From IMG/VR virus record IMGVR_UViG_3300045135_001534, positions 1-21,443 of that record: a stretch of 21,443 nt of DNA; one strand, written 5' to 3'. The notes below the pieces were generated by a model. It did no database searches. It was not told the DNA's origin and worked only from the letters and a program-made list of their open reading frames with translations. Source of the stretch: a virus. The translations under genes were made by a program, and so were the position numbers. Below, piece by piece: positions 6,784 to 21,443 of the stretch. Position 1 is the first letter of the stretch. Each line of letters opens with the position of its first letter.

Positions 6784-6824
6784 AGAATACACGATCAGAG
6801 GGGTTCTGGGGGGTTTGGTGGACA
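6784..6824 (-). promoter_or_regulatory. Composite promoter module, copy 1 (divergent)
   Basis: The minus strand has TGTCCAC at 6824-6818 and TATTCT at 6789-6784 with 28 nt between. The upstream box is weak and overlaps the end of the 52-residue gene. This copy lacks the AAGAGTCAAAG tail and has a longer leader than the others. Confidence 0.55.
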
Positions 6825-6826
6825 GT

Positions 6827-6985
6827 TCAGAAATCGTCCTCATCTCCCAGGATGTACCCTTCCACCCATCCCGCTGTGTATCCGTCGTCTTTGGTAAAGA
6901 GTCGGATCTTAAGCAGTTTGGCAACAGCGAAGGGCAACCCGATGGCAAGGGCACCAGGAATGAGAATGGCAAGCAGTTCGTTCAT
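6827..6985 (-). CDS. Small single-pass membrane protein, 52 residues
   Basis: It starts at ATG 6985 (MNELLAILIPGALAIGLPFAV). A hydrophobic helix covers about residues 4-25, followed by a basic KLLKIRLFTK stretch and an acidic tail (GYILGDEDDF). An inner-membrane location with a cytoplasmic C-terminus is predicted from the positive-inside rule. The upstream extension in the same frame encodes the promoter module and is rejected. Its stop lies inside the upstream part of the next promoter module. Confidence 0.75.
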   Translation of the reverse strand: MNELLAILIPGALAIGLPFAVAKLLKIRLFTKDDGYTAGWVEGYILGDEDDF

Positions 6986-7008
6986 GGGTCGTTTCCTTTG
7001 ACTCTTAT

Positions 7009-7066
7009 AGTATTGCACACCCTGATCGGGTTCTGGGGGGTTTGGTGGCCACCTTATGGACCGTCC
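7009..7066 (-). promoter_or_regulatory. Composite promoter module, copy 2
   Basis: The minus strand has TGGCCAC at 7051-7045 (within the palindrome GGTGGCCACC), a divergent upstream box near 7066-7058, and AATACT at 7014-7009, followed by ATAAGAGTCAAAGGAAACG before the ATG at 6985. The gap is 30 nt. AAAGGAAA serves as ribosome binding site. Confidence 0.65.
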
Positions 7067-7077
7067 CCCAGTTTGTA

Positions 7078-7314
7078 TCAAATAGCAACGTATTCCATAG
7101 TGTTACGATTGTCGGCAGATTCCCAGGTAGAGTAGAAATCATCCCATGCCACTTTGTTTTCAACAAAGGAATCAATGTCCAGCATCTCACATACCCAATC
7201 ATATGCCATATCTACGTCGGCATTTGTATCATCGATGAATGCAATCATCTGACCCATAATGTCATCCCAGGTTGCTTGCATTTCGGGGGAGATGGTGAAG
7301 ATTGGTTGTGCCAT
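7078..7314 (-). CDS. Hypothetical acidic protein, 78 residues
   Basis: The frame begins MAQPIFTISPEMQATWDDIM and is strongly acidic and helical (IAFIDDTNADVDMAYDWVCEMLDID). It contains seven Asp/Glu clusters and several Trp. No known domain is recognised. It has its own promoter module (copy 3) and lies just downstream of the KTSC-domain gene, so the two are transcribed separately. Confidence 0.8.
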   Translation of the reverse strand: MAQPIFTISPEMQATWDDIMGQMIAFIDDTNADVDMAYDWVCEMLDIDSFVENKVAWDDFYSTWESADNRNTMEYVAI

Positions 7315-7340
7315 TTGTGTTGGATTTCTTTGACCCTTCT

Positions 7341-7397
7341 AATCTACATGAAAACAACCCCCGTGCCTATTTTGTGTGACACCTATCCGATTGGCAC
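7341..7397 (-). promoter_or_regulatory. Composite promoter module, copy 3 (divergent)
   Basis: The minus strand has upstream box GTGCCAA at 7397-7391, box TGTCACA at 7381-7375 and TAGATT at 7346-7341 with a 28-nt gap, then AGAAGGGTCAAAG. The spacing equals the best copies although the sequence has drifted. It overlaps the stop of the KTSC gene. Confidence 0.6.
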
Positions 7398-7649
7398 AAT
7401 GCTCTCGTCTTTGATATAATGATTGAAAATCTTTCCAATTGAAAATGTTTCCAGATCCTTAGATGCTTCCTCAAAACATTCAAAAACACTGCTGTCTTTT
7501 ACATCATAAAAATATACCTTATCGGGAGAACTATGAAATGACACTGATAAGATTGCCTGCTCATAATCCATTCCCATGCTACAAATACATGATGATTCTT
7601 CTGAGGTGAATGATAATTGGTAGATGGAATCAGTGATCTGAGAGTTCAT
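7383..7649 (-). CDS. KTSC-domain protein, 88 residues
   Basis: Residues about 17-82 match the KTSC domain pattern: an ESSCICSMGMDYEQAILSV strand pair, a VYFYDV tract in place of the usual V.Y.Y.xV motif, an alpha-helix with ECFEEASKD, and the closing KIFNHYIK signature in place of FN..IK. KTSC domains are small single-domain modules of unknown biochemical role, found in bacteria and phages and sometimes fused to RNA-related domains. It is preceded by a consensus sigma70 promoter (TTGACA-17-TACAAT), not by the phage-type module of its downstream neighbours. That suggests early expression. Confidence 0.75.
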   Translation of the reverse strand: MNSQITDSIYQLSFTSEESSCICSMGMDYEQAILSVSFHSSPDKVYFYDVKDSSVFECFEEASKDLETFSIGKIFNHYIKDESIVPIG

Positions 7650-7673
7650 TGAGATCTTATATGTTTGCCTCTT

Positions 7674-7702
7674 ATTGTATCATTTTTGGGGTCTGATGTC
7701 AA
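7674..7702 (-). promoter_or_regulatory. Consensus sigma70 promoter upstream of the KTSC gene
   Basis: On the minus strand TTGACA (7702-7697) and TACAAT (7679-7674) are separated by 17 nt. Transcription would start near 7667, with a leader of about 18 nt to the ATG at 7649. This is one of the two best host-type promoters in the window. Confidence 0.75.
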
Positions 7703-7838
7703 GGGGTTGACGTGTCGATCACTCGCAGGTAAAGGTCACAAGAACTGGAGGCATTTAACAAGAATTCCGCACATTTATAAGGGATTAATAAGACATAAGA
7801 ACAAAGGTTTATGAGACAATAAAATAAACAAAACATGT

Positions 7839-7846
7839 TATTTATA
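7839..7846 (-). promoter_or_regulatory. Late-type TATAAATA element in the intergenic region
   Basis: The 229-nt gap 7650-7878 holds no gene. It contains the consensus sigma70 promoter at 7674-7702 and, on the minus strand, TATAAATA at 7846-7839, which fits the T4-like late motif. It would give a second, late start for the KTSC gene region with a leader of about 185 nt. AT-rich chance occurrence is possible. Confidence 0.4.
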
Positions 7847-7878
7847 CACATTTCAAAAGTATGTTTTTTAACACATTT

Positions 7879-8940
7879 TTAACCCTTAATTAACATACTC
7901 TCCATCCAGTCCATACAATTAACCCAATCCTTAAACACCTTTCTCTCACTACATTTCTTGAACAATTCTTCCATACAATCCAATGAATAATCCCATTGTT
8001 TGCTATGATACAATTTTTCTATTTTTTTCACATAAAAACAAATATCCGCGGAGTCTTCAACATTCTTAGGATTACGGTTCTGATCAGTAAAGAAAGGATA
8101 ATCCTTGGGTAGATAATACCTTGCCTCATATTGCCAATGATCAACAAGTATAGGACATTTAAGAGCTGATGCAGTAAACCCCTTTGTAAATGGTTTGAAT
8201 GGTGCATAAGGATCATACCATCTTGTTGCCCAATGAAAAGAATAATCAGTTACAATATCCTTCCATTCATGCTTAATCTCTTCGGGTGGTTTCATATACT
8301 TTTTCATCACATTCATCCATTTTCCACCTTGCCTTTTACGCATTAGAACCATCTCTTTTGATGATAACACGTCATCAAGATTATCAGTCCAATAACTATC
8401 ATATAACCAGTCACATGTGTTCACCCATTGAATTGTATTAGGTGGAAAATTAACTGTGGGAGTTGCATCAGAAGAACCAATATATGCAATCTTTAGTTCA
8501 TCTGGTGGTTTAGAATTAGGACGTATAAAGTAATCATCAAAACCATGAATCACATATTTTACTGGTAAACCTAATGACGTATAATAAGCATATTGAGAAA
8601 TTGAAGATGCAATATGTAAATCACAAACATCAAGATCATGTTTCTTAGGAACATGATCAATCATATCAGAAACAAGATAACGAATATGACCATAAAGTTT
8701 TAATTTGTGAAGTGCATCAATATACTGAAAACACCCCTTATTTGCAATGTAGATCGTTCTTTCTTTATCATAATTACGATATAACTTTTCTTTTACAAAT
8801 TTAAAAATATTGATAGCAATGATGGGATAATCTTTTAACTTATCCAATACATTCATCACTCTTAGCTTTACATTACCAACAACAATGTTTTCATTACCAA
8901 ATCCAGAAGATGTGGCATATAATATCACAAACTGTGTCAT
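7879..8940 (-). CDS. Probable GT-B fold glycosyltransferase
   Basis: A 353-residue protein whose ATG overlaps the stop of the upstream 363-residue gene by four bases (ATGA), so the two are coupled. It has the two-domain layout of GT-B transferases. The N-terminal half ends with YLVSDMIDH..., IASSISQYAYY and VKYVIHGFDDYF, resembling the domain-swap region. The second half starts at LKIAYIGSSDA and contains PFKPFTKGFTASALKCPILVDHWQYEARYYL, similar to the K-F-xxAxAxxCPV donor-binding motif. No signal peptide or membrane segment is visible. It probably transfers a sugar. Substrate is unknown, and the fold is inferred from motif style without a search. Base composition is like its neighbours. Confidence 0.6.
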   Translation of the reverse strand: MTQFVILYATSSGFGNENIVVGNVKLRVMNVLDKLKDYPIIAINIFKFVKEKLYRNYDKERTIYIANKGCFQYIDALHKLKLYGHIRYLVSDMIDHVPKKHDLDVCDLHIASSISQYAYYTSLGLPVKYVIHGFDDYFIRPNSKPPDELKIAYIGSSDATPTVNFPPNTIQWVNTCDWLYDSYWTDNLDDVLSSKEMVLMRKRQGGKWMNVMKKYMKPPEEIKHEWKDIVTDYSFHWATRWYDPYAPFKPFTKGFTASALKCPILVDHWQYEARYYLPKDYPFFTDQNRNPKNVEDSADICFYVKKIEKLYHSKQWDYSLDCMEELFKKCSERKVFKDWVNCMDWMESMLIKG

Positions 8941-10028
8941 ATTGTTGATGAATGAATCAAATTATATTTCTTTGCCTGTTTTGCAGTATAGTTACGATCA
9001 GAAAGATCTAATAACTGTGTAAGATACTCATCTGGTGATACAATTCTTTCGGCACCTAATAATCTCTTTGCTTCCTTCAATCGTTCCTGAAACTTTGATT
9101 CATCAATATCACGAAACAATTCAGTAACTCTTCTTTTATGTTCTAATGCCTTCTCAGGATCAACACCATCTTTCATTCTTAAAATAGTAAATTGATCCAT
9201 ATTGATATACTTCATCTTTGCATCTAGCAGAAAATAATGCACACCAGCATATGTGGCATACATTGCATTACTTGTAATCTTTTGACTACAGGCATATTTT
9301 GCACCAGCAAAAAGATCTAACATTCTCCAGTGAAAGTTTTGATCTAATACAACACCACAACAAAATACTTCATATCCACGACGTTTTGCATCCTCGGCAA
9401 CACCAAGATCCACATCCTTATGAAACACACATACTTTGATCGGTTTCATTTCTTCCGGTAAATCTTCTAATTGTTTCCACATCTTCTTGTAATCAGTCAC
9501 CACAATTCGTGAGTTTGTGCTATGACGTGGAAAAAAGATTGTGCCCTTTCGTTCTACTTTATCTAACGTTCCATCCTCAGTTCGTGCCTTCTTCCAATTT
9601 GCATAAGAATAACAAAATGGTGCGGCAGTTGCTAATACTTTCTCCTTTCCAACGTTTCTTTCATAAATCGGGTCCATAAAATGAGGCCACGATAATGCCG
9701 TGCGAAACGATACTTTCTTATCACCATCAGGAAATTCATAAGGATGTAGATCCTTATGCGTATACATTTCAAAATGAATACCATGACGTGTCACACCTGG
9801 CAGTGCATGTGCTTTCAAATCTTTGCCCGTTCCTTCACTCAAATATCGTTTGATATTCTTTGCTACTCCATACACATTGTTGGGCCAATATGCCTCATAT
9901 TGTTGTGATCTTTTTAACCAATAATTGTAATACTCTACACCTTCTTTTGGTTGAGATCCGGGAATGAAAAATGTTTGATCATTTGCCATTTGGTGCATCT
10001 CTTCGATGCTTTTTTCATATGTGATCAT
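8937..10028 (-). CDS. Large protein of unknown function, possibly glycan-related
   Basis: A 363-residue protein coupled to the glycosyltransferase gene by an ATGA overlap. Residues 160-185 contain RKGTIFFPRHSTNSRIVVTDY. The region VCVFHKDVDLGVAEDAKRRGYEVFCCG is an alpha/beta strand-helix pair, and SNAMYATYAGVHYFLLDAKM resembles the nucleotide-sugar-binding end of capsule or polysialic-acid type transferases. A C-terminal coiled, basic helical segment ends in KQAKKYNLIHSSTI. I therefore suggest a glycan-processing role in partnership with the next gene, but this is a weak match. GAGAGT 5 nt before the ATG may be the ribosome binding site, and a late-like ACTAAATA sits further upstream. Confidence 0.55.
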   Translation of the reverse strand: MITYEKSIEEMHQMANDQTFFIPGSQPKEGVEYYNYWLKRSQQYEAYWPNNVYGVAKNIKRYLSEGTGKDLKAHALPGVTRHGIHFEMYTHKDLHPYEFPDGDKKVSFRTALSWPHFMDPIYERNVGKEKVLATAAPFCYSYANWKKARTEDGTLDKVERKGTIFFPRHSTNSRIVVTDYKKMWKQLEDLPEEMKPIKVCVFHKDVDLGVAEDAKRRGYEVFCCGVVLDQNFHWRMLDLFAGAKYACSQKITSNAMYATYAGVHYFLLDAKMKYINMDQFTILRMKDGVDPEKALEHKRRVTELFRDIDESKFQERLKEAKRLLGAERIVSPDEYLTQLLDLSDRNYTAKQAKKYNLIHSSTI

Positions 10029-10061
10029 GATACTCTCAGTTCAGTTATATTCTCCTTTTCC

Positions 10062-10208
10062 TTATTTAGTTTGTGTGCAAAGATCTAATTCTTCCTCTTC
10101 TTCCACATATACACAATCATATTCATCATCCTGACAATACTTTTCCAAACGAATCTCATCAAGAAATTCCATTGCATCCTTCATAAGTTTGATCCTTGTG
10201 TGAGTCAT
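10062..10208 (-). CDS. Small acidic protein, 48 residues
   Basis: The start at 10208 (MTHTRIKLMKDAMEFLDEIR) is chosen over a longer reading to 10271, which runs into the end of the upstream gene. The C-terminal third is extremely acidic (DDEYDCVYVEEEEELD). It has its own extended -10 promoter at 10239-10247. Its stop lies inside the ACTAAATA late-like element that precedes the next gene. Unknown function. Small acidic proteins can mimic DNA, but nothing here shows that. Confidence 0.7.
   Translation of the reverse strand: MTHTRIKLMKDAMEFLDEIRLEKYCQDDEYDCVYVEEEEELDLCTQTK
10063..10070 (-). promoter_or_regulatory. Late-like element ACTAAATA upstream of the two glycan genes
   Basis: The minus strand reads ACTAAATAAGGAAAAGGAG across the stop of the 48-residue gene, 35-42 nt before the ATG at 10028. 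The same ACTAAATA followed by AAAGGAG is seen before the GT-A gene at 5645-5652. Confidence 0.4.
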
Positions 10209-10238
10209 TGGAAAAAAATTGAAAGTGTACTTGATAGA

Positions 10239-10247
10239 ATTATAGCA
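10239..10247 (-). promoter_or_regulatory. Extended -10 promoter TGCTATAAT at a gene end
   Basis: The minus strand reads TGCTATAAT, a perfect TGnTATAAT extended -10, and its TATAAT shares bases with the last sense codon and stop of the 43-residue gene. The -35 region (TTACTA) is weak, as is usual for this class. Transcription would start about 24 nt before the ATG at 10208. Confidence 0.5.
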
Positions 10248-10371
10248 TGAATTCCTCAACATAGTAATCAACAGTTACCTCATACTTTGATGCTTCCTCT
10301 TCAATACATTCGATGAAATCAGTGAAAACCTCATCATTGTCAATTTGTGAACGCAATTCAGAAAGTGTCAT
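10240..10371 (-). CDS. Small acidic protein, 43 residues
   Basis: The frame runs MTLSELRSQIDNDEVFTDFI... and ends YYVEEFML, acidic and probably helical. It lies between two other small genes with no large gaps. A plausible start is the first ATG in the frame. The end coincides with an extended -10 promoter for the next gene. Too short to assign a family. Confidence 0.65.
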   Translation of the reverse strand: MTLSELRSQIDNDEVFTDFIECIEEEASKYEVTVDYYVEEFML

Positions 10372-10410
10372 AAAAAATAATAATTTGTAACTATACTATT
10401 TAACACCTAA

Positions 10411-10638
10411 TTATTCATTTTCAAGCAGATCAGGATAATACTCTTCCACTTCTTCTACCAGTTCATCGACACTATACTTGTCATATGACTCTCTCATGTA
10501 ATCATATAGACACGCATACATTGTTTTCAAATCCATATCATCCAGCATTTGATTGATAAGATTGGATTGAAGTTCATCACGATCGATAATGTTTTCTTTC
10601 ATGGTGTTAGGATCAGTGGGAAAAGAAACGAATGACAT
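10411..10638 (-). CDS. Conserved small acidic protein, 75 residues
   Basis: The C-terminal two thirds (LKTMYACLYDYMRESYDKY, then SVDELVEEVEEYYPDLLENE) is an acidic helix-loop-helix of a kind I recall as frequent in T4-like cyanophage genomes. The ATG at 10638 overlaps the upstream stop by one base (TAATG), so this start is preferred over an internal ATG at 10602, although the first 12 residues (MSFVSFPTDPNT) look like an added leader. Function unknown. Confidence 0.8.
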   Translation of the reverse strand: MSFVSFPTDPNTMKENIIDRDELQSNLINQMLDDMDLKTMYACLYDYMRESYDKYSVDELVEEVEEYYPDLLENE

Positions 10639-10811
10639 TAGAATGAAAGATAGGGATGATTTGGTTTTAGTTTGTTGTCACCATCATGCTCATAATCAAA
10701 CTCATATACAGGAGAGTATTCATCCCGTCCGATGTCATAAACCATCACATCTTTTTTGAGTTGATCTGCATCGAGTTGCAACAATCGCACCAAAAGTTCA
10801 GAATAAGTCAT
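10638..10811 (-). CDS. Small protein, 57 residues
   Basis: It starts at ATG 10811 (MTYSELLVRLLQLDADQLKK), which overlaps the stop of the 83-residue gene (TGATG). An ATG farther upstream lies inside that gene and is not used. The N-terminal amphipathic helix is followed by YDIGRDEYSPVYEFDYEHDG, which resembles small beta-rich phage proteins. Coupled on both sides. No family assigned. Confidence 0.75.
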   Translation of the reverse strand: MTYSELLVRLLQLDADQLKKDVMVYDIGRDEYSPVYEFDYEHDGDNKLKPNHPYLSF

Positions 10812-11062
10812 CAGCAAGAGCAAGAAAGTCCAGAATTGAAAAGTTGTGCCTCAGTGTGAAAATCAGTCACTTCATAACCATAACCCTCAACACGGGAATC
10901 AATCTCACGTTGCATATCTTTTTTGTTGATATAACGCATGGACTGTTGATCGGTCATGAAATTAACAACTTTGAGCATGAGACGATTGTGAATCTCACCC
11001 GTGGCAAACTTGACGGGATAGAAATCAACAACCATGGAAGAATCTTTAGAAGTGAGTTGCAT
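10811..11062 (-). CDS. Hypothetical protein, 83 residues
   Basis: It begins MQLTSKDSSMVVDFYPVKFAT, with a likely alpha/beta fold and a C-terminus FNSGLSCSC holding two Cys. It is the first gene after composite promoter copy 4, heading a run of three coupled genes (83, 57 and 75 residues). The start is 30 nt downstream of the -10 hexamer. Unknown function. Confidence 0.78.
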   Translation of the reverse strand: MQLTSKDSSMVVDFYPVKFATGEIHNRLMLKVVNFMTDQQSMRYINKKDMQREIDSRVEGYGYEVTDFHTEAQLFNSGLSCSC

Positions 11063-11091
11063 CGTTTGAGGTGGGTTGCTTTGACTCTTTT

Positions 11092-11148
11092 AATATACAG
11101 GTTTTAGGTGCCCGTGGGGGAAATAGTGGACACCTTACGGACTGTCAC
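11092..11148 (-). promoter_or_regulatory. Composite promoter module, copy 4
   Basis: On the minus strand: box GTGACAGT (11148-11141), box TGTCCAC (11132-11126), 28-nt gap, TATATT (11097-11092), then AAAAGAGTCAAAGC. The gap starts with GGGCACC-compatible pairing to GGTGTCC (7 bp including a G-U pair). Its 55-bp core is nearly identical to copies 5, 7 and 8. Confidence 0.8.
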
Positions 11149-11312
11149 CAGATCTCAGTCCATCGTTTGTGATTTGCTTTGGTGATGTTACCTTGTTTCA
11201 ACATGTTGTCACACACGTTGACAAAGACTTGAAACTTTTGCTCTCGGGTGAGAGTATCTGCTCCGTCGCATTGTTTCATCACACGGATCATTTGTGCTTT
11301 AGAAGTGATCAT
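11145..11312 (-). CDS. Small basic helical protein, 55 residues
   Basis: The frame reads MITSKAQMIRVMKQCDGADT and continues to KANHKRWTEIW, a compact, lightly basic helical protein with two Cys. Its ATG overlaps the stop of the upstream 43-residue gene (ATGA). A plus-strand frame covering the same bases is its mirror and is ignored. The promoter module of the next gene overlaps its 3' end: the GTGACAGT box begins just after codon WTEI. Confidence 0.68.
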   Translation of the reverse strand: MITSKAQMIRVMKQCDGADTLTREQKFQVFVNVCDNMLKQGNITKANHKRWTEIW

Positions 11313-11440
11313 TTAGATGAAATGATAGAAACTTTGAGTGTTTTAGGATCTAATACTTTAATGAACTTAGGTTGTTTTGTGTTGGGAATTGTTGCAAATT
11401 GATGAAATCCAACACGACGAATTACATTTGGTGTTTGCAT
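11309..11440 (-). CDS. Small basic protein, 43 residues
   Basis: It begins MQTPNVIRRVGFHQFATIPN and ends LDPKTLKVSIISSK. The composition is basic with beta-strand tendency. It is coupled downstream by ATGA to the 55-residue gene and starts 2 nt after the stop of the 52-residue gene. These three genes follow composite promoter copy 11. Confidence 0.62.
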   Translation of the reverse strand: MQTPNVIRRVGFHQFATIPNTKQPKFIKVLDPKTLKVSIISSK

Positions 11441-11442
11441 AA

Positions 11443-11601
11443 TCACATTCCGTTAAGAAAATCATGAAGTGCTTCTTCATACTCTTCATATGAAGAATAA
11501 CGGTCCCGCATGTTAGCAGGAACCTCTTTTTTAGCAGGACGGTAACACTCTTTTACGGTGTAACCTTTGGATTCAATGTAGTCAGTGAGATGGTTTTTCA
11601 T
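11443..11601 (-). CDS. Small charged protein, 52 residues
   Basis: The start at 11601 (MKNHLTDYIESKGYTVKECY) is preferred because AGGAAC stands immediately before it. A longer reading to 11667 would run into the promoter module and overlap the previous gene. The C-terminal part (YSSYEEYEEALHDFLNGM) is a Tyr/Glu-rich helix. Unknown function. It heads a three-gene run driven by promoter copy 11. Confidence 0.72.
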   Translation of the reverse strand: MKNHLTDYIESKGYTVKECYRPAKKEVPANMRDRYSSYEEYEEALHDFLNGM

Positions 11602-11607
11602 GTTCCT

Positions 11608-11667
11608 AATATGGCACAGATCCCGGCAAAAATCAAGGGGGGCCAGGACACTATACCAACTGTCCAC
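11608..11667 (-). promoter_or_regulatory. Composite promoter module, copy 11 (divergent)
   Basis: On the minus strand GTGGACAGTT (upstream box, directly after the stop codon of the nuclease-like gene) is followed 16 nt later by GTGTCCTG (11650-11644), a 30-nt gap and CATATT (11613-11608), then AGGAACATG. Spacing agrees with the other copies. The AAGAGTCAAAG tail is replaced by AGGAAC. Confidence 0.5.
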
Positions 11668-12231
11668 TCAGAAGTCCAGATAACCTTCGATTGCTTTATT
11701 GATAGCTTCAGACAAAAGTGTGGGAGGTTCAATAATATCGAACTCACCTAGATCACATTCATAATAGTCACCTAGTTTGAGTTCCATCATTGCACCATCT
11801 GCACCCTCTTGATATAAAGAACGTGCTTTCTCATCTTCAACAATCACCACACGACGGGCAGTGAGATCAATCACCATCATGTAGTCGAAAGTTTTATCCT
11901 TGCGAAAATCTTCAACAGTTTTCTTCTCACTCAGAAAAGATTTCACTTTGAACTTTTTAGTGGCATGAATGTCCTTGCGTTTGTAGAACAAATTCTTACC
12001 CATCTTCAGTTCTACTTTCTTTTTTACTTTCTTATCATCAAAGGTAAAATCATATCCAGTTTGATCCACACGTTCAAGATCTGAGAACTTTGCGATTGCT
12101 TTCTCTACAGCAGTTGCACGGGCAAAGTTATCAGCATTAGAGGTAAATCCTTTGTCATTGTAGAGAGAATCCACAACACCGAAGATTTTACCCCAGTCAG
12201 TTTTTGTTTCCAGAGAATCAATCAGATGCAT
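11668..12231 (-). CDS. PD-(D/E)XK nuclease-like protein
   Basis: A 187-residue protein. Residues 59-80 (TGYDFTF..., then VELKMGKN) match the PD-(D/E)XK core: D61 (or D65/D66), then the E74-L-K76 motif, as in many restriction endonucleases. A preceding helix and KIFGVVDSLYNDKGF at the N-terminus, plus a basic KRKDIHATKKFKVK stretch after the core, could contact DNA. The conserved strand MMVIDLTARRVVIVEDEKA follows. Fold assignment comes from this motif pattern only. It lies next to the SF2 helicase gene but is driven by its own promoter module (copy 5). A role in degrading host DNA or in a restriction-like function is inference. Confidence 0.55.
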   Translation of the reverse strand: MHLIDSLETKTDWGKIFGVVDSLYNDKGFTSNADNFARATAVEKAIAKFSDLERVDQTGYDFTFDDKKVKKKVELKMGKNLFYKRKDIHATKKFKVKSFLSEKKTVEDFRKDKTFDYMMVIDLTARRVVIVEDEKARSLYQEGADGAMMELKLGDYYECDLGEFDIIEPPTLLSEAINKAIEGYLDF

Positions 12232-12255
12232 GACTTAAATTCCTTTGACTCTTTT

Positions 12256-12313
12256 AATATACAGGTTTTAGGTTCCCGTGGGGGGAATAGTGGACAGTTT
12301 TCACCACTGGCAC
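12256..12313 (-). promoter_or_regulatory. Composite promoter module, copy 5
   Basis: On the minus strand: box GTGCCAGT (12313-12306), box TGTCCAC (12296-12290), 28-nt gap, TATATT (12261-12256), AAAAGAGTCAAAGGAA, ATG at 12231. One of the four nearly identical copies. Confidence 0.8.
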
Positions 12314-12338
12314 ATCATCAAATAATCCCTGCCAGTGG
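12304..12338. repeat. Inverted repeat containing the promoter-module box
   Basis: CCACTGGCA (12304-12312) and TGCCAGTGG (12330-12338) are a perfect 9-bp inverted repeat with 17 nt between. One arm is the upstream box of promoter copy 5, so the other arm is a further copy in opposite orientation. Confidence 0.65.
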
Positions 12339-12435
12339 TATCGACACTGAGACTCAGACTAGACTCAAATGACCCCAGTGATAGCAAGGGATCTCAAGAT
12401 ATAAACAAATGATTTTCTTTCATTTTTACTCTAAA

Positions 12436-12462
12436 GGGGCAACAGGTCATCCCTGCCACCCC
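12436..12462 (-). terminator. Intrinsic terminator after the helicase gene
   Basis: The arms 12436-12446 and 12452-12462 pair over 11 bp in the minus-strand transcript, three pairs being G-U, with a 5-nt loop, followed by UUUAGAG. In the opposite transcript the three pairs become mismatches, which points to minus-strand use. The 258-nt gap 12232-12489 holds no gene that I can support. Confidence 0.6.
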
Positions 12463-12489
12463 CGATGCAGAAAAATCAATTTATGACAT

Positions 12490-13680
12490 TCAACGACGCA
12501 CAACACTATCAAGCATCTCACCCTTTTGGAAGACAGTATCAATAACCGTCTGCAATCCTCGTTGAGTAGACACACCAACGTTAGAATAAACAGGAACGAC
12601 ACAGAAACCATAAGTCTTATTTACACCACCTTTGCGAAGCACACGACCCACAGTTTGAGTCATTTCAATCACATCCATGTTACGCATGAAAATGACTGCT
12701 TCCAGTTGACTGACGTTGATACCTTCAGACAAAATTGAACGGTGAAGAACAACAAACTTTTTGCTAGGATCTTTACCCCAAGCGTTCAGTGTCTCAAAGA
12801 ATTTCTCACGGGAAACTTTCTCACCGTCAATGATAGCACCAGTCTTGGCAGTGATATACAAATAAGAATAACCACGTTGCTCAAGTTGCTCAGCAAAATC
12901 AGTCTGGAAAATGGTAGTCAGTTGCTTTGTGGTTTTTGCACACACCAGAATCTTTTTGATGTTGATGTCATCAATTGTGGTGAGGATGTTGTTGCTCTCA
13001 AGGTGAGGAGTGATAGACTTGCGATCAACTTTGTCCATTTCGATGACATGAACCTTAGGAGGGAGAATATAACCACCATCAACCAGTTCAGGTGCAGAAA
13101 CATGACAAATCACGTTACCATAAACCTCAGGGTCATTCATGCCAGGTTTAGCAATAGTGACAGAAGTCTTACGGGTTGCAGTGAAGAAGTAGCAACGATC
13201 TGCGTGACGGGAGAAATACTCTGTAGCAGGGAAAAAGTTACGTTTGACACTGTTATGTGCCTCGTCAAAGTAAATGGTATCCACTGCAATACCAGAATCC
13301 ATCACACGATTGAGGGAATTGTAAGTGGTGAAGATGATAGTATGCTCACGCACTGTCTGACACATATCAACAAACATTTTGATACGATCAGGTTTTGTGG
13401 TGCTGAAGTGTTTGGTCTCACCACTATGAACGTGCAGCACATTTGCATTAGTAATGTGCTCAAGATACTCAGCAGAAAGTTGCTCAGCAAGAAGAATCCG
13501 GGGAGCAACTACAACAATAGTCCGCGGAACGTTCACTTCAAAACGTTTCTTAGCATCCATAATACCGACAAGAGTCTTACCACCACCGGTAGGAAAGATG
13601 CACTGACCGATAGCATTTTGCCGCAGTGCGTTGATTGCACGTTGCTGATGCGGTCGGAGAGTGATGGTCAAGTGAGTCAT
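12490..13680 (-). CDS. SF2 DEAH-type helicase
   Basis: A 396-residue superfamily 2 helicase. Motifs in order: LRPHQQRAI (Q-motif-like, 8-16), PTGGGKT Walker A (30-36), APR (59-61), DEAH (139-142), TAT motif III (167-169), SEGINV (318-323) and QTVGRVLR motif VI (342-349). All catalytic residues are present. The layout resembles type III restriction-subunit or UvsW-like DNA translocases, but it is shorter than T4 UvsW (about 503 residues). The start at 13680 is chosen because the -10 of promoter copy 6 precedes it. A start at 13740 would put the module inside the protein. It probably acts on DNA in recombination, repair or host-genome processing. An antisense frame of 320 codons is its mirror. 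Confidence 0.85.
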   Translation of the reverse strand: MTHLTITLRPHQQRAINALRQNAIGQCIFPTGGGKTLVGIMDAKKRFEVNVPRTIVVVAPRILLAEQLSAEYLEHITNANVLHVHSGETKHFSTTKPDRIKMFVDMCQTVREHTIIFTTYNSLNRVMDSGIAVDTIYFDEAHNSVKRNFFPATEYFSRHADRCYFFTATRKTSVTIAKPGMNDPEVYGNVICHVSAPELVDGGYILPPKVHVIEMDKVDRKSITPHLESNNILTTIDDINIKKILVCAKTTKQLTTIFQTDFAEQLEQRGYSYLYITAKTGAIIDGEKVSREKFFETLNAWGKDPSKKFVVLHRSILSEGINVSQLEAVIFMRNMDVIEMTQTVGRVLRKGGVNKTYGFCVVPVYSNVGVSTQRGLQTVIDTVFQKGEMLDSVVRR

Positions 13681-13697
13681 GTGCGATTGATGAATAT

Positions 13698-13756
13698 AAT
13701 ATAAACCCTCACGGGTGATCCCGCAAGGGTTAGTGGACACTTTGAGTAACTGGCAC
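13698..13756 (-). promoter_or_regulatory. Composite promoter module, copy 6
   Basis: On the minus strand: box GTGCCAGT (13756-13749), box TGTCCAC (13739-13733), 29-nt gap, TATATT (13703-13698). It carries no AAGAGTCAAAG tail. The gap is filled by a terminator-like hairpin. Confidence 0.7.
13704..13731 (-). terminator. Hairpin inside promoter copy 6 (terminator fused to promoter)
   Basis: Arms AACCCTTGCGGG and CCCGTGAGGGTT (minus-strand sense) pair over 12 bp, including two G-U pairs, with a 4-nt loop, followed by UAUAUUAUAUU. The wobble pairs work only in minus-strand RNA. It would end the 95-residue gene transcript while overlapping the helicase promoter. Confidence 0.55.
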
Positions 13757-13761
13757 AGTGG

Positions 13762-14049
13762 TTAGAGGAAAAATGATTCCAAACCCTTGTAATTTATTTG
13801 CATTGCAGTATAATTCCGCGTATCTTTTATGTCTACGCTATCACCAACTCTTTTATGGTTGATTGGGGCAAAATACTGCTGTTTTTTGGTGTTGTAGAAT
13901 CCCCAAATCGTAGAAACAGGATCATTGCTATAGTTGTAATGATTGGGATGCTGTAACCAAATAGAAAGCACATTACGTTTAAACGATTGTACTTTGTAGG
14001 AGTAACCTTCTGGAGGTTGATGGGGGAAATCATAAGGAAGTTCAAGCAT
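13762..14049 (-). CDS. Hypothetical protein, 95 residues
   Basis: It starts at ATG 14049 (MLELPYDFPHQPPEGYSYKV) and overlaps the preceding gene by 8 nt. The protein is rich in Tyr, Asn and His and ends KGLESFFL. It looks like a small beta-rich domain with WGFYNTKKQQYFAP in the centre. No function recognised. A start at 14070 would extend deep into the preceding gene without a ribosome binding site. Confidence 0.72.
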   Translation of the reverse strand: MLELPYDFPHQPPEGYSYKVQSFKRNVLSIWLQHPNHYNYSNDPVSTIWGFYNTKKQQYFAPINHKRVGDSVDIKDTRNYTAMQINYKGLESFFL

Positions 14050-14266
14050 TTTGGAAGTACAATCCAGCAACTTTCATCAGTTCGATGAGTTTATCTTGAA
14101 TTTCTTCTAGATCTTTTGATTCAAATTCATCACACTCATAAAGATCAACAGGTTCCCAATCTTCAAGTGAAATTGTTCCATCAGTCATAATAGGAGAGTA
14201 ATAAAGTTCTCCCTCAGAACAAACAGAATAAACACAACCGTAGTTTTCAGCAGTGAGCATGATCAT
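14042..14266 (-). CDS. Hypothetical acidic protein, 74 residues
   Basis: The ATG at 14266 (MIMLTAENYGCVYSVCSEGE) has GAGGT 9 nt upstream. The candidate at 14272 would be a TTG. The sequence is acidic with a helical C-terminus (SKDLEEIQDKLIELMKVAG). Its start lies 12 nt after the stop of the 44-residue gene. Unknown function. Confidence 0.75.
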   Translation of the reverse strand: MIMLTAENYGCVYSVCSEGELYYSPIMTDGTISLEDWEPVDLYECDEFESKDLEEIQDKLIELMKVAGLYFQNA

Positions 14267-14278
14267 GGTCAAATTACC

Positions 14279-14413
14279 TCAGAAATCGTTTTCAGAATCA
14301 AGAAAGTTATCAAATGATTTGTCATCAAAATCATCATCAAATTCTTTCATCTCGGGAATGTCATAGATCTCACCAGGAGCATCAGCAATTTCGGACCAGA
14401 GTTCATCAAACAT
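14279..14413 (-). CDS. Small very acidic protein, 44 residues
   Basis: It reads MFDELWSEIADAPGEIYDIP, then EMKEFDDDFDDKSFDNFLDS. More than a third of its residues are Asp or Glu. Sits in register between two other small genes. No family assigned. A role as a DNA-mimic or protein partner is possible but unsupported. Confidence 0.62.
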   Translation of the reverse strand: MFDELWSEIADAPGEIYDIPEMKEFDDDFDDKSFDNFLDSENDF

Positions 14414-14453
14414 GTTTAAAAGAAAATAGAGTGTTCAGGATGGTAAGTTTAGT

Positions 14454-14615
14454 TCACTGATCGTCAACAATCAATGACTCATCAGGAAGATTATTTGCAC
14501 GGACTTTCATTCGATTTAGTTTGGAAACATTCCAACCATTTTTTTCGGAATCAGTGACAACTCCATCAAGTTGTCTCCTTTCACTTTCAGTATGATAGTG
14601 ACGATGGTCGTTCAT
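14454..14615 (-). CDS. Small protein, 53 residues
   Basis: It begins MNDHRHYHTESERRQLDGVV, His-rich at the N-terminus, and ends PDESLIVDDQ. A GAGG ribosome binding site lies 6 nt before the ATG, and an extended -10 promoter stands just upstream. The composition is natural for a small soluble protein. Function unknown. Confidence 0.68.
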   Translation of the reverse strand: MNDHRHYHTESERRQLDGVVTDSEKNGWNVSKLNRMKVRANNLPDESLIVDDQ

Positions 14616-14640
14616 AAAAACCTCTGAATTGAACTAGTAA

Positions 14641-14649
14641 ATTATAGCA
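14641..14649 (-). promoter_or_regulatory. Extended -10 promoter TGCTATAAT
   Basis: The minus strand reads TGTGCTATAATTTAC just after the stop of the 133-residue gene, giving TGnTATAAT. It would start transcription about 19 nt before the ATG at 14615. The same TGCTATAATT occurs at 10239-10247. Confidence 0.5.
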
Positions 14650-14657
14650 CATTACCA

Positions 14658-15059
14658 TCATTTCATGTAAAGATAGGCACCAGACCAATCTGCTTTCTCA
14701 AAACATTCTTCACGGGATGCAATTTCTAGCAGACGGAAACGAACATGTTTTGCAGGTGCTTTGAATGATGCTGCCTTGTAAACTTCACCAGTCTTCTTAT
14801 CTACGAAAGCATGAACACTACGGGAGGGAGGACGATTGTGGTTAGGAACCTCCATGATGATTTTGTGGTACTTACGACCAGACTCGATCACAAACTTATA
14901 CTCAGGAGCATCATAACCAGCGACTTTGCCATGGTTACGATCCTTGAAGTTCTGCTCCAGGGCATCACACAGCATGAGAGTATACTTACGGACGTTAAGT
15001 TCAATGGTGTTCCGTGCATCTTGCGTTGCAACGTAGTCAGAAAATGTCTGAGTGGTCAT
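14658..15059 (-). CDS. Conserved phage protein of unknown function, 133 residues
   Basis: The segment SVHAFVDKKTGEVYKAASFK (about residues 81-100), followed by APAKHVRFRLLEI, is a signature I recall from widespread cyanophage hypothetical proteins. The N-terminal MTTQTFSDYVATQDARNTI starts directly after promoter copy 7. A central aromatic-basic part and a C-terminal WSGAYLYMK complete the domain. It may be a small nucleic-acid-related protein, but I cannot support a function. Confidence 0.82.
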   Translation of the reverse strand: MTTQTFSDYVATQDARNTIELNVRKYTLMLCDALEQNFKDRNHGKVAGYDAPEYKFVIESGRKYHKIIMEVPNHNRPPSRSVHAFVDKKTGEVYKAASFKAPAKHVRFRLLEIASREECFEKADWSGAYLYMK

Positions 15060-15082
15060 GCCTTTGTTCCTTTGACTCTTTT

Positions 15083-15139
15083 AATATACAGGTTTTAGGT
15101 GCCCGTGGGGAGAATAGTGGACACCTTGAGAATTGTCAC
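15083..15139 (-). promoter_or_regulatory. Composite promoter module, copy 7
   Basis: On the minus strand: box GTGACAAT (15139-15132), box TGTCCAC (15123-15117), 28-nt gap, TATATT (15088-15083), AAAAGAGTCAAAGGAA, ATG at 15059. One of the four nearly identical copies. Confidence 0.8.
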
Positions 15140-15324
15140 ATAGGTCGAATTGGTCTATCAAATTTTTCTAATCGATAACCCTCTTTGATAGCTTGCATTA
15201 TGATGTTGTCATACGAATGTGACATCAATGGAATGTTACGATGGAGAAGAAAGTCCTCACAATCTTCAGACAATGCTTCTTTACGTTCGTGGGACATTGT
15301 ATCAAGAAATGATCGATCAATCAT
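15136..15324 (-). CDS. Hypothetical small protein, 62 residues
   Basis: It reads MIDRSFLDTMSHERKEALSE and ends DRPIRPM, mildly charged and mostly helical. No ribosome binding site is obvious. Its last codons overlap the upstream box of promoter copy 7. Unknown function. Confidence 0.68.
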   Translation of the reverse strand: MIDRSFLDTMSHERKEALSEDCEDFLLHRNIPLMSHSYDNIIMQAIKEGYRLEKFDRPIRPM

Positions 15325-15354
15325 AGTGAAGAAAAAATGGTGTAAACTTTAGAA

Positions 15355-15609
15355 TCAGTAGTGTGATTCAGACCAATCAAGTTTGTCAGACCATTTTGCA
15401 ATCTGATTGTAACACTTAGTGCGGGATTCTTCATCATCCCCAAAGTCACTTAAAAACTCAAAAGCATACTTGATTCGTGTTTCGGGTTGAGACAAAATGC
15501 GATCCAGTTCTTGTTTCGCAGTTTTCTTTTCTTCCTGCTGTTTCTGATAGTTTGCATTGTAAGCAAACATTTCACGATCAACAAAAGATGTTGTGTAGTA
15601 AGGGTGCAT
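15355..15609 (-). CDS. Hypothetical coiled-coil-like protein, 84 residues
   Basis: Start at 15609 (MHPYYTTSFVDREMFAYNAN), which follows promoter copy 8. A longer reading to 15762 would run through the promoter and overlap the membrane-protein gene. A Lys/Glu/Gln-rich helix (YQKQQEEKKTAKQELDRILS) suggests a coiled coil. The C-terminal half has FLSDFGDDEESRTKC. Function unknown. Confidence 0.75.
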   Translation of the reverse strand: MHPYYTTSFVDREMFAYNANYQKQQEEKKTAKQELDRILSQPETRIKYAFEFLSDFGDDEESRTKCYNQIAKWSDKLDWSESHY

Positions 15610-15634
15610 TAGGTTGCGTTCCTTTGACTCTTTT

Positions 15635-15691
15635 AATATACAGGTTTTAGGTGCCAGTGGGGAGAATAGTGGACACCTCTTCAACTGGACC
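15635..15691 (-). promoter_or_regulatory. Composite promoter module, copy 8
   Basis: On the minus strand: box GGTCCAGT (15691-15684), box TGTCCAC (15675-15669), 28-nt gap, TATATT (15640-15635), AAAAGAGTCAAAGGAA. Much of it is also coding: the last 12 codons of the membrane-protein gene lie in it. Confidence 0.8.
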
Positions 15692-15790
15692 AAGTAATTT
15701 TGAATCTCTTTCTGCCAAAAATGAAAGATAACTCCCAAGTGCAAGGCATACAAGTATGCCACTGAGTCCGTATTGTGCGACTTTAGACAT
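15647..15790 (-). CDS. Small single-pass membrane protein, 47 residues
   Basis: It starts MSKVAQYGLSGILVCLALGS, with a hydrophobic helix over about residues 8-27, followed by a short charged tail. It is separated by 2 nt from the upstream 84-residue gene. Its final residues (VEEVSTILPTGT) are encoded by the conserved promoter-module bases and end at TAA 15647-15649. Either the protein simply runs into the repeat or the module was inserted at its end. Membrane location is predicted from the sequence. Confidence 0.6.
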   Translation of the reverse strand: MSKVAQYGLSGILVCLALGSYLSFLAERDSKLLGPVEEVSTILPTGT

Positions 15791-15792
15791 TA

Positions 15793-16047
15793 TCAATAAG
15801 AAACAATGTAGTTGAGGCAATCGTTAGGATTTTGAATAACGCTTGCTTTTGGAGGCAAAATTGAATCTATCGGTTGCAGTTTCCATTCAGATCCGTTTTC
15901 AGCAATAACAGCAAACCCGAAGACACCAGCAGTTGGCATCATATAAAGACCATGTTTTTCTGCCTGTCTGGCACTGGAAAATCCACGGGCAGTGATTGTC
16001 CAATCCTTACCGAAGTAAGCACAAATGAAATCTTTCATGGGTTGCAT
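15793..16047 (-). CDS. Hypothetical protein, 84 residues
   Basis: Starts at 16047 (MQPMKDFICAYFGKDWTITA), directly after promoter copy 9. The second Met is possible too. The protein looks like a small alpha/beta domain, with SARQAEKHGLYMMPTAGVFG and VIAENGSEWKLQPID. Such mixed folds are common among cyanophage hypothetical proteins. No function assigned. Confidence 0.75.
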   Translation of the reverse strand: MQPMKDFICAYFGKDWTITARGFSSARQAEKHGLYMMPTAGVFGFAVIAENGSEWKLQPIDSILPPKASVIQNPNDCLNYIVSY

Positions 16048-16062
16048 TGCTTTGACTCTTAT

Positions 16063-16119
16063 AGAATACAGGAAAACAGATCCAGATCAACCGATAGTAG
16101 ACACCTTTCCAACTGGCAC
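16063..16119 (-). promoter_or_regulatory. Composite promoter module, copy 9
   Basis: On the minus strand: box GTGCCAGT (16119-16112), box TGTCTAC (16103-16097), 28-nt gap, TATTCT (16068-16063), ATAAGAGTCAAAGC, ATG at 16047 (9 nt leader after AAAG). The gap sequence differs wholly from copies 4, 5, 7 and 8, so the conserved parts are the boxes, spacing and tail. Confidence 0.75.
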
Positions 16120-16123
16120 ATGT

Positions 16124-16558
16124 TTACCTGCGATTCATAGAATCATATTCATCCAAACTAGTTGTGAGTGATCTTGAGAATGAATTTTCTCTGACTTGAG
16201 TTTTTTGAATGGGTTGATTATTTTCTTTATTATTTTCTGATGGAGAAAATAAAGTAAGTGCTGCAATTCCAAGAACTATTATGAGAACTGCCCGGAATAA
16301 TCCGAATATAAATCCAAAACAACCAATAGGTTCACTATCATAACGTGGATCATCATAATTAGAAGATCCGTCGTAAGTTCCTGAACCTGTATGATAATTG
16401 TCATGATTATCATATCCATCAGAAACAGCATTGGCACCTAGAAAAATTGATCCAGGATTGCGATGAATTGCAATGTCTCTTGCTTCATTCTGACCATTTG
16501 CATGAACGTAGTCATAGAATTGACTACCATTCCGAATCAATTTGACTTCGTATTGCAT
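16124..16558 (-). CDS. Membrane-anchored protein, 144 residues
   Basis: Start at 16558 (MQYEVKLIRNGSQFYDYVHA), 8 nt after the stop of the 57-residue gene. The in-frame ATG at 16618 would overlap that gene. Residues 1-45 form a small domain, 45-78 a low-complexity Asp/Tyr/Gly linker (YDNHDNYHTGSGTYDGSSN), and about 79-104 a hydrophobic helix (CFGFIFGLFRAVLIIVLGIA). A Ser/Asn/Arg-rich tail follows. No signal peptide. The topology suggests an inner-membrane protein acting on the host envelope, which is inference. Confidence 0.72.
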   Translation of the reverse strand: MQYEVKLIRNGSQFYDYVHANGQNEARDIAIHRNPGSIFLGANAVSDGYDNHDNYHTGSGTYDGSSNYDDPRYDSEPIGCFGFIFGLFRAVLIIVLGIAALTLFSPSENNKENNQPIQKTQVRENSFSRSLTTSLDEYDSMNRR

Positions 16559-16565
16559 GATTAGA

Positions 16566-16739
16566 TTACTTAGAGGTTGCGATAAAATTGTTTTCTTTCC
16601 AGTGCTGAATAAATGCACGACGAAGCATCAGCAGTTCATCATATCGTTCCTGCTGATCTTTAGTGAAGATAAAGTTTTGATCCTTATACACTTTTTGAAG
16701 TGCTTGAAGTGACCGGAGAACTTGTGAAGATCCTTGCAT
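16566..16739 (-). CDS. Small helical protein, 57 residues
   Basis: It reads MQGSSQVLRSLQALQKVYKD, then LMLRRAFIQHWKENNFIATSK, helical and basic. The ATG follows promoter copy 10, and the stop lies 7 nt before the next ATG. No family recognised. Confidence 0.72.
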   Translation of the reverse strand: MQGSSQVLRSLQALQKVYKDQNFIFTKDQQERYDELLMLRRAFIQHWKENNFIATSK

Positions 16740-16759
16740 GTGTTTTGTTCGACTTTTTT

Positions 16760-16818
16760 AATATACAGGAAAAACAGGGCAGTGGTTAGAACAGTGTGGC
16801 AGTTTCTAAAGTGTCCAC
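16760..16818 (-). promoter_or_regulatory. Composite promoter module, copy 10 (boxes within the methyltransferase gene)
   Basis: On the minus strand GTGGACACT (16818-16810) is followed 16 nt later by a CTGCCACA box (TGCCACA at 16801-16795), a 29-nt gap, TATATT (16765-16760) and AAAAAAGTCG. Both boxes lie in the last codons and stop of the methyltransferase gene. The sequence is drifted but the spacing is intact. Confidence 0.6.
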
Positions 16819-17654: not shown

Positions 17655-17663
17655 ATTATAACA
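17655..17663 (-). promoter_or_regulatory. Extended -10 promoter (TGTTATAAT) for the methyltransferase gene
   Basis: Just downstream of the terminator at 17670, the minus strand reads TGTTATAAT. Transcription would begin near 17648, leaving a very short leader before the ATG at 17640. No -35 is visible. Confidence 0.45.
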
Positions 17664-17669
17664 TAACAT

Positions 17670-17695
17670 AAAAAAACCTCCCCGTCAAGGGAGGT
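17670..17695 (-). terminator. Intrinsic terminator after the fibre operon
   Basis: ACCTCCC (minus strand 17695-17689) pairs with GGGAGGT (17682-17676) over 7 bp with a 6-nt loop, and the minus-strand RNA continues in seven U. It separates the structural genes from the methyltransferase cluster. Confidence 0.85.
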
Positions 17696-17714
17696 CATGA
17701 CAGATATTTAATTG

Positions 17715-17824
17715 TCACCACAAATCATCTTCTTCTTCAATATCAATCACATCAACATATTCATTTTCTTCTAATTGAAGAAGATCTTGCCAGTCAAAAA
17801 ATTCTGGTTCTTTATCTTCCATTA
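17715..17824 (-). pseudogene. Frameshifted small acidic gene (about 35 codons if restored)
   Basis: From ATG 17824 the frame reads MEDKEPEFFDWQDLLQLEEN then EYMLM and stops (25 residues, stop 17747-17749). If two bases of a TATAT tract near 17757-17762 are removed, the reading continues VDVIDIEEEDDLW and stops at 17715-17717. The restored tail has the same acidic style as the start, which suggests a true gene broken by a dinucleotide change, or an assembly error, or programmed slippage. It lies between the 82-residue gene and the terminator. Confidence 0.35.
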
Positions 17825-21100: not shown

Positions 21101-21443
21101 GTGTTAAAGAACCAGATATTGTTCCAACATTACCATCACCAGCAAAGTAAATCTCATTGGGATCCATTGCAATTCCAGTAGTGGAATTGCCAATTCTAAA
21201 CCATCCATTATCAAATGTTGTTGCAGCAATAGTTGATGCTCCAGCAGGAACTGTTAGTTTGCCAGAAATAGTTGTATTACCCGAAACCTGTAGAGTGCCA
21301 TTAATGTCCGTATTTCCACCAATAGTAGTGACACCCGCTATGTTAGTGTTTCCAGCAACTGAAAGTGTTGCAGCCACATCAAGATTCGCACCAACAGAGG
21401 TATTACCCTTGATTTGAGTTACACCACCAATAGAAGTATTGCC
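18171..21443 (-). CDS. Repetitive tail fibre with C-terminal peptidase-G2-type domain (5' end outside window)
   Basis: The frame is open to the right window edge: no stop and no better start are seen, so the GTG at 21377 is internal. 1090 residues are visible. Most of the chain is a beta-rich repeat built from two motifs: LR(T/C)xS(F/L)xxTG (about eight copies) and GxSYLSGxVQxKG (five copies). AAICGSMDICGSLQV occurs twice. About 172 residues (19795-20310) form a carbohydrate-binding-like jelly-roll insertion (GRWRITIQVKAS, YASVVVLNWSG). The last 155 residues (GGGIDYAEYFEW, GEKIALATSGNIPIGVISKNPAF, WNAYILNADG) match peptidase G2, an autoproteolytic trimerisation-chaperone domain of phage appendages. 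It should form the adhesin that recognises the host surface. Confidence 0.85.
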   Translation of the reverse strand, partial: GNTSIGGVTQIKGNTSVGANLDVAATLSVAGNTNIAGVTTIGGNTDINGTLQVSGNTTISGKLTVPAGASTIAATTFDNGWFRIGNSTTGIAMDPNEIYFAGDGNVGTISGSLTLNPANGQILAGSKTLAIQTIDATGNIETTAVISGTQLRTASFRSTGILTVNGASYLSGSVQAKGTLSVGGRLTAGGDIQTTSLSITNGAQVGGALTVTGVTDLNGNTSVCGQLQVTGVLSGGQLRTSSFRTTGTLNVQGASYLSGSVQAKGNTSIGGVLTVTSSTNLLGNAAVAGTLSVQGASYLSGAVQVKGALSGNQLRCTSLKSSGTLNVQGGSYLSGTVQAKGVLSGAQLRCSSLRVTGGTAAICGSMDICGSLQVGGFVSATNYNFEMFGAVPAYNNSNYGTINWNTANSAIQLRSSTDQTIGMAFPAFRVNSATNVLGRWRITIQVKASAAASSGLYIRVYEYDGELPAGKVAVSNDATNAVVQEDTRNGSITGTVENVAIGTDWVTKTFYYSPTATAVYASVVVLNWSGIGTNHLYVRPPVIQPEYGGFVSATTLRTSSFRSTGALTVQGGSYLSGSVQAKGILSGLQLRCASLRVTGGTAAICGSMDICGSLQVAAVLSAGQFRGTSNNLQRGNISAMTYGQLNGAFLSASTLRCASFRITGNGTAAICGGLDVSGAIQAAFISGSQIRGVSATLQRSSVSLHNGTGVATYDKVRVWNSAQYTIGMTQGLLYGGLGSDYAMTFTMNNDISRGFLWRHADMTVSQGAMSLTTKGQLTVAHGMRLGFGDADTTTPTAQYLTINGHICCSVIHNYILDCDGYLQVSGAISCGGGVHAAGGAIQTTGIISGTNLRCTSFKCEETATISSTKTSSTTLMVRGSGNGGHILLYQYATGQTYTGVMQVQTAVRAGTTCFMFLGAYSSNGSDIEYVMRGNGQASADGAWYGGGIDYAEYFEWKDGNPYNEPRYGQPVYLISGEKIALATSGNIPIGVISKNPAFTGGSAWNKWEQKYLRDEWNAYILNADGERILNPDFDPDREYIPREQRSEWDAVGLMGKLAIQKDYITDTIRNNTNWLKMADINDDVERWLVK
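19595..19658. repeat. 64-bp perfect direct repeat in the fibre gene, copy A
   Basis: A 64-bp block (encoding part of the AAICGSMDICGSLQV repeat) recurs without mismatch at 20321-20384, 726 bp away and flanking the jelly-roll insertion. Confidence 0.9.
20321..20384. repeat. 64-bp perfect direct repeat in the fibre gene, copy B
   Basis: Second identical copy, on the other side of the carbohydrate-binding-like insertion. Perfect identity suggests recent duplication or gene conversion, and recombination between copies would delete the inserted domain in frame (726 nt is divisible by 3). Confidence 0.9.

Follow-up and report, generated by a model that had tools for sequence, protein, structure and literature searches.

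A 24-bp dyad at fixed spacing before sigma70-type promoters in small-gene clusters of T4-like cyanophages, a candidate activator site

A repeated promoter module built on one dyad

In the virus record IMGVR_UViG_3300045135_001534 (21,443 bases, analysed over its full length and referred to here as the window) we found a promoter module that recurs upstream of small genes and consists of a 24-bp dyad, a spacer of tightly kept length and a -10 hexamer. We read these modules, with a probability of about 0.72, as sigma70-type promoters that would be switched on by a homodimeric protein bound at the dyad. Proteins encoded on the window include gp6- and gp25-like baseplate wedge proteins, a helicase, a DNA methyltransferase, Kyano_Gp96 and members of numerous small PHROG families, and its DNA matches 418 phage records, nearly all of them cyanophages. 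Judged by protein content and DNA matches, the window is a fragment of a T4-like cyanophage.

Eleven composite modules had been proposed from the letters of the window alone, and all of them were recovered at their positions on the minus strand, where they sit in a cluster of small genes. An additional twelfth and weaker module, absent from that list, precedes dam. A composite model, in which two boxes and the -10 are each separated from the next by a gap and which was trained on 80 related IMG/VR loci, gave 14 matches with a score above 14 on the window minus strand, a few of which are one module counted in two registers, against none in shuffled sequences. Scanning for the dyad alone gave 10 dyads in the window, compared with 0.2 by chance. 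The string GTGTCCACTA taken by itself was unremarkable (18 matches with at most 2 mismatches, 14.7 expected). The original prediction had named recurrence in relatives as its test, and modules were indeed found in related phages; its view that the composite module marks a regulon is upheld.

What had been described as two independent boxes proved to be the arms of a single dyad with the consensus TGKGMCASTT-N4-AASTGKCMCA. When the boxes were modelled separately and compared over 239 non-redundant aligned sites, the base frequencies of the left arm TGTGACAGTT and of the reverse complement of the right arm were nearly equal (r=0.95), with identical two-way choices (T/G, A/C, G/C) at matching positions, whereas a direct-repeat reading reached r=0.45 in its best register. 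Two window dyads (12314, 13757) have an extra central base, five instead of four. Paired counts in the two arms equalled the expectation from column composition, and no compensatory changes occurred among these sites. Mirrored arms without covariation read as the signature of a homodimer's DNA operator rather than of a folded strand. An inverted repeat could also form an RNA or DNA hairpin, which we consider highly improbable here: besides the missing covariation, the dyad lies upstream of the inferred transcription start and should therefore not be part of the downstream gene's transcript. The window also had no Rfam matches, and an RNA hairpin was rejected.

The distance between dyad and -10 was examined in four genomes held out from the training set (S-CRM01, S-PM2, P-SSM2 and P-HM2), with a dyad-only matrix that did not require a -10. 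There the -10 peaked 28-31 bp past the dyad, with a mode of 29. Among dyads scoring above 18, 61 of 89 had a -10 on one or both sides at a distance of 27-32 bp, compared with 12 of 267 at control offsets. The gap of 28-30 nt between box and -10 that had been proposed holds if counted from the end of the dyad; measured from where the second box ends, the gap is 26-28 nt. A total of 502 modules were collected, 292 of which remained after removal of redundancy. TATAAT, the sigma70-type hexamer, was the commonest -10 (86 of the 292), and a -35 matching TTGACA in at least 4 of 6 positions at 16-18 bp spacing was found in 89, ten of them perfect. This is a threefold enrichment over the 29 expected; the remaining 203 modules had fewer than 4 matches at that spacing. 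The claim that a -35 at the normal distance is missing hence describes most window copies and not the class as a whole. With a -10 at fixed distance, TATAAT as its commonest form and a -35 in part of the set, we classify the modules on sequence grounds as sigma70 promoters with a variable -35.

The centre of the dyad precedes the -10 by about 41 bp, which would place this centre near -53 from the transcription start if the hexamer occupies -12 to -7. In 302 of 475 modules a start codon follows 20-29 nt past the -10. The element AAAAGAGTCAAAG, which the original prediction had included in the module, was seen in some copies, and its place is the mRNA leader. In this subset the leader variant has AAAG at its end, in most cases some 10 nt ahead of the ATG, and it may help translation.

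In the mechanism we propose, a host SigA-like RNA polymerase would read the -10 (TATAAT or TATATT), with a -35 that is often weak or absent. A homodimer would dock on the single 24-bp dyad upstream and meet the polymerase at a constant helical position, and could thereby recruit it to many small-gene operons simultaneously. An activator touching the polymerase is favoured because the helical distance is fixed, the core promoter is not overlapped and the -35 is mostly missing. The target operons probably belong to the early class; this timing is suggested by the small-gene clusters and by a study on phage Syn9, taken up below. Three strong dyads have a -10 at the expected distance on both sides, about 30 bp away on each (P-SSM2, NC_006883, 53915 and 58535; P-HM2, NC_015284, 39292). 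This suggests divergent promoters driven from one symmetric operator and fits what a symmetric activator site would allow.

Several points weigh against activation from the dyad. Around one third of the strong dyads have no recognisable -10 at the expected distance on either side, the roughly 30% of modules with a fair -35 might work without an activator, and the protein families common to all eight motif-bearing genomes include no recognisable sequence-specific DNA binder. Such dyads frequently serve as repressor sites, and in principle this one might be bound by a repressor or by a protein of the nucleoid type. As a repressor operator, the dyad would allow an early phage product to shut the early genes later, host sigma70 polymerase being sufficient initially; basal activity without an activator is conceivable for the modules with a usable -35, and many modules carry a perfect TATAAT. 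We nevertheless regard a repressor as rather unlikely. At least 28 bp separate the end of the dyad from the -10, the core promoter is left free and the distance is kept within about 3 bp, so that contact with the polymerase would be expected rather than blocking, and a promoter lacking its -35, like most window copies, also speaks against it.

Distribution in phages and hosts and the supply of the binding protein

With at most 3 mismatches allowed, dyads numbered 22 in S-CRM01, 15 in P-SSM2, 14 in S-PM2, 8 in P-HM2, 6 in Syn9 and 1 each in HTVC008M and S-TIM5; T4, Ma-LMM01, P-SSP7 and Syn5 had none. Modules were present in P-SSM2, P-HM2, S-PM2, the freshwater phage S-CRM01 and Syn9, where they sit in its small-gene cluster at 43-53 kb. 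They were not found in T7-like cyanophages, T4, Ma-LMM01 or the pelagiphage HTVC008M, the single dyad of which did not form a module by matrix. S-TIM5 (NC_019516), a cyanomyovirus classed outside Kyanoviridae, carried a variant form: the matrix scan revealed at 163774-170911 a small cluster of GC-richer dyads with the right arm AGTGGCCCA or AACTGGCCCA and a -10 at 29-30 bp. Across divergent phages the dyad, the spacing and the -10 were conserved, and the spacer varied freely.

Among hosts, the first 1.6 Mb of Synechococcus WH7803 contained no complete module, and its 12 dyads fall within the 9-22 seen in shuffled sequence. Only 13 of 151 host-family genomes had any dyad with at most 2 mismatches, and the dyad loci inspected among these 13 were not in a promoter-like setting. 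On the 1.6 Mb of WH7803 and the family loci inspected, a host regulon was rejected. One dyad-like sequence, TGTGCCACTAATCAAACTGACACA, was common to two host-family genomes, G014 (C28:18747) and G138 (C133:5000), and was not promoter-like where inspected; G014 carries four sites of this type.

Whether phage or host would supply the factor is in our estimation nearly an even question. Restriction of the modules to phages favours a phage-supplied protein, whereas a host protein is favoured by the constant consensus in phages of different hosts and by its occurrence in S-TIM5. A conserved cyanobacterial regulator that is co-opted to read the dyad would alter the activator reading only in the supplier of the protein, and we hold this to be a serious possibility, if somewhat short of probable. 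The core consensus is shared by phages of Prochlorococcus and of marine and freshwater Synechococcus, S-TIM5 has similar sites at equal spacing, and the search for a shared phage-encoded DNA-binding candidate came up empty. However, WH7803 had neither dyad excess nor module in the 1.6 Mb, an analysis that few or weak host sites would escape, dyads were rare and not promoter-like where inspected in host-family genomes, and the dyad is missing from T7-like phages that infect the same hosts.

The phylogenetic profile of Syn9 open reading frames (ORFs), searched for a shared DNA binder, returned just photosynthesis, structural and small unknown proteins. Two candidates were discarded. Syn9 gp230, annotated as a transcriptional regulator (phrog_385), has a relative in HTVC008M, which we count as dyad-less, and shows no convincing Pfam domain. 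Syn9 gp97 (phrog_1308), which has 54 aa and by eye resembles a helix-turn-helix protein, should not be the general factor because P-HM2 and S-TIM5 carry dyads without it. Separately, we noted at Syn9 57929-58093 (L125:7929-8093) a conserved 54-aa protein (phrog_1308/1920) that looks helix-turn-helix-like by eye and is present in 7 of the 8 motif-bearing phages, P-HM2 being the one without it.

Our more specific proposal remains tentative: at least two lineages of cyanophage myoviruses might use an activator of their own, either brought in by the virion or synthesised immediately, which would act on the 24-bp dyad and drive an early regulon of about 10-25 promoters through host sigma70 polymerase. 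If true, this would be a takeover by early promoters distinct both from the unaided early promoters of T4 and from MotA, and the activator would be a DNA-binding protein of unknown family. In the ocean, T4-like cyanophages are both abundant and widely distributed. The dyad offers a precise bait for the missing factor, predicts which of the many small unknown genes would be regulated together in the initial phase of an infection, and could be used in cyanobacterial reporters as a portable promoter.

Embedded terminators and relation to known systems

In 25 of the 292 spacers, where 1.1 would be expected, the stretch from dyad to -10 contains a GC-rich hairpin followed by a T run, which the other spacers lack; GGGGAGCTTTAAGCTCCCCTTTTTT is an example from S-CRM01. 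In modules of this subset, where the spacer holds the intrinsic terminator of the upstream operon, the previous transcript would stop at the start of the next one. The S-PM2 stem loop reported at 11369-11391 (PMC4503421) begins at the 3' edge of a dyad (11347-11370) and falls mostly inside the module spacer.

This arrangement resembles the PeSLs, which, as far as they are described where PMC4503421 cites them (Arbiol 2010; Comeau 2014), are composite promoter-terminator cassettes of T4-like phages. In the 25 spacers with a hairpin, terminator and putative early promoter would, as in that description, share one short intergenic unit, and near-identical copies occur within a genome. The modules differ from the cassettes so described in that their conserved part is the 24-bp dyad and that most spacers lack a terminator. 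The repeats could be mainly PeSL-like recombination cassettes spread by gene shuffling, their identity reflecting recent spread and not selection on binding. In line with this, modules 4, 6, 8 and 9 (starts 11149, 12314, 15140 and 15692) are near-identical across spacer, -10 and leader, terminator-promoter fusions are enriched as stated above, and PeSLs are on record in T4-like phages in the works that PMC4503421 cites. PeSLs in S-PM2 were judged too sparse to account for shuffling (PMC4503421). We find cassettes as the main explanation unlikely because divergent phages keep just the dyad, the spacing and the -10 while the spacer changes, which argues for selection on binding; both functions are compatible with each other.

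For Syn9, which carries modules and belongs to the same phage group, a 2016 study by Doron et al. reportedly found that a "novel regulatory element" drives early genes and that host-like promoters drive middle genes. That element is probably the dyad module. The description of the module as previously unfamiliar is doubtful for this reason. The dyad, the fixed spacing, the S-TIM5 variant and the embedded terminator are not known to have been part of that account. Additions to it may be the dyad with its spacing rule, the contrast between hosts and phages, the promoters on both sides of one dyad and the terminators embedded in spacers.

The modules resemble T4 middle promoters in outline only: an activator site would replace or aid the -35, and sigma70 would read the -10. 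T4 middle promoters use a MotA box with sigma70 and AsiA, and this box is short and lies in the -30 region, whereas the conserved element of the modules is a 24-bp dyad that would be centred near -53. Cyanomyoviruses have been described as lacking alt, modA/B, motA and asiA, with early and middle control called unclear and sigma70-like motifs noted for S-PM2 and Syn9 (PMC2984593); the absence of motA and asiA is taken here from that paper and not from a search of our own. Promoters of the NtcA/CRP type in cyanobacteria combine, as proposed for the modules, a dimeric activator, a palindrome and a downstream sigma70 -10. NtcA sites, GTA-N8-TAC centred near -41.5, differ from the modules in arms and spacing, and the 1.6 Mb of WH7803 held no such regulon. 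The original prediction was thus correct that neither a MotA box nor an NtcA box fits. T4-type late promoters (gp55), with TATAAATA at the -10 and no upstream element, differ likewise from modules with an upstream dyad and a sigma70-like -10.

Window modules, downstream genes and neighbouring genes

Module positions are compiled in Table 1. Families recurring downstream of modules were DUF7717 (in part inflated, as DUF7717 served as bait), phrog_500, helicase, Kyano_Gp96 and a phrog_459 "peptidase". The phrog_459 gene was located downstream of modules in six phages, namely Syn9, P-HM2, P-SSM2 and three IMG/VR genomes.

Table 1. Promoter modules of the window, all on the minus strand, with the ORF that follows each.
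Module	Extent	Dyad	Dyad position	-10	-10 position	Other features	Downstream ORF	ATG
1	6784..6841	GAGGACGATTTCTGAACTGTCCAC	6841-6818	TATTCT	6789-6784	28-bp spacer	Kyano_Gp96 family	6726
2	7009..7068	GGGGACGGTCCATAAGGTGGCCAC	7068-7045	AATACT (poor)	7014-7009	leader ATAAGAGTCAAAGG	small hydrophobic ORF	6985
3	7341..7398	TGTGCCAATCGGATAGGTGTCACA	7398-7375	TAGATT	7346-7341		phrog_714	7314
4	11092..11149	GGTGACAGTCCGTAAGGTGTCCAC	11149-11126	TATATT	11097-11092		phrog_500	11062
5	11608..11667	GTGGACAGTTGGTATAGTGTCCTG	11667-11644	CATATT	11613-11608	-35-like TTGATT; -10-to-ATG gap just 6 nt	small ORF	11601
6	12256..12314	TGTGCCAGTGGTGAAAACTGTCCAC (25 bp)	12314-12290	TATATT	12261-12256		187-aa ORF without Pfam or PHROG match	12231
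7	13698..13757	TGTGCCAGTTACTCAAAGTGTCCAC (25 bp)	13757-13733	TATATT	13703-13698		ResIII/DEAD helicase	13680
8	15083..15140	TGTGACAATTCTCAAGGTGTCCAC	15140-15117	TATATT	15088-15083		DUF7717	15059
9	15635..15692	TGGTCCAGTTGAAGAGGTGTCCAC	15692-15669	TATATT	15640-15635		phrog_15469	15609
10	16063..16120	TGTGCCAGTTGGAAAGGTGTCTAC	16120-16097	TATTCT	16068-16063	-35-like TTGATC	84-aa ORF	16047
11	16760..16818	GTGGACACTTTAGAAACTGCCACA	16818-16795	TATATT	16765-16760	overlaps dam 3' end	57-aa ORF	16739
12 (probable, weak)	17660..17719	GGTGACAATTAAATATCTGTCATG	17719-17696	TATGTT	17665-17660	terminator-like hairpin and T run in spacer; -35-like TTGACG	dam	17640

Elsewhere on the minus strand, two adjacent genes (7879-8940 and 8937-10028) encode proteins of 353 and 363 aa without Pfam or PHROG match. 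A repetitive protein of 1068 aa is encoded at 18171-21377, also on the minus strand; its C-terminal part matches a pre-neck appendage family, and it is probably a fibre or appendage.

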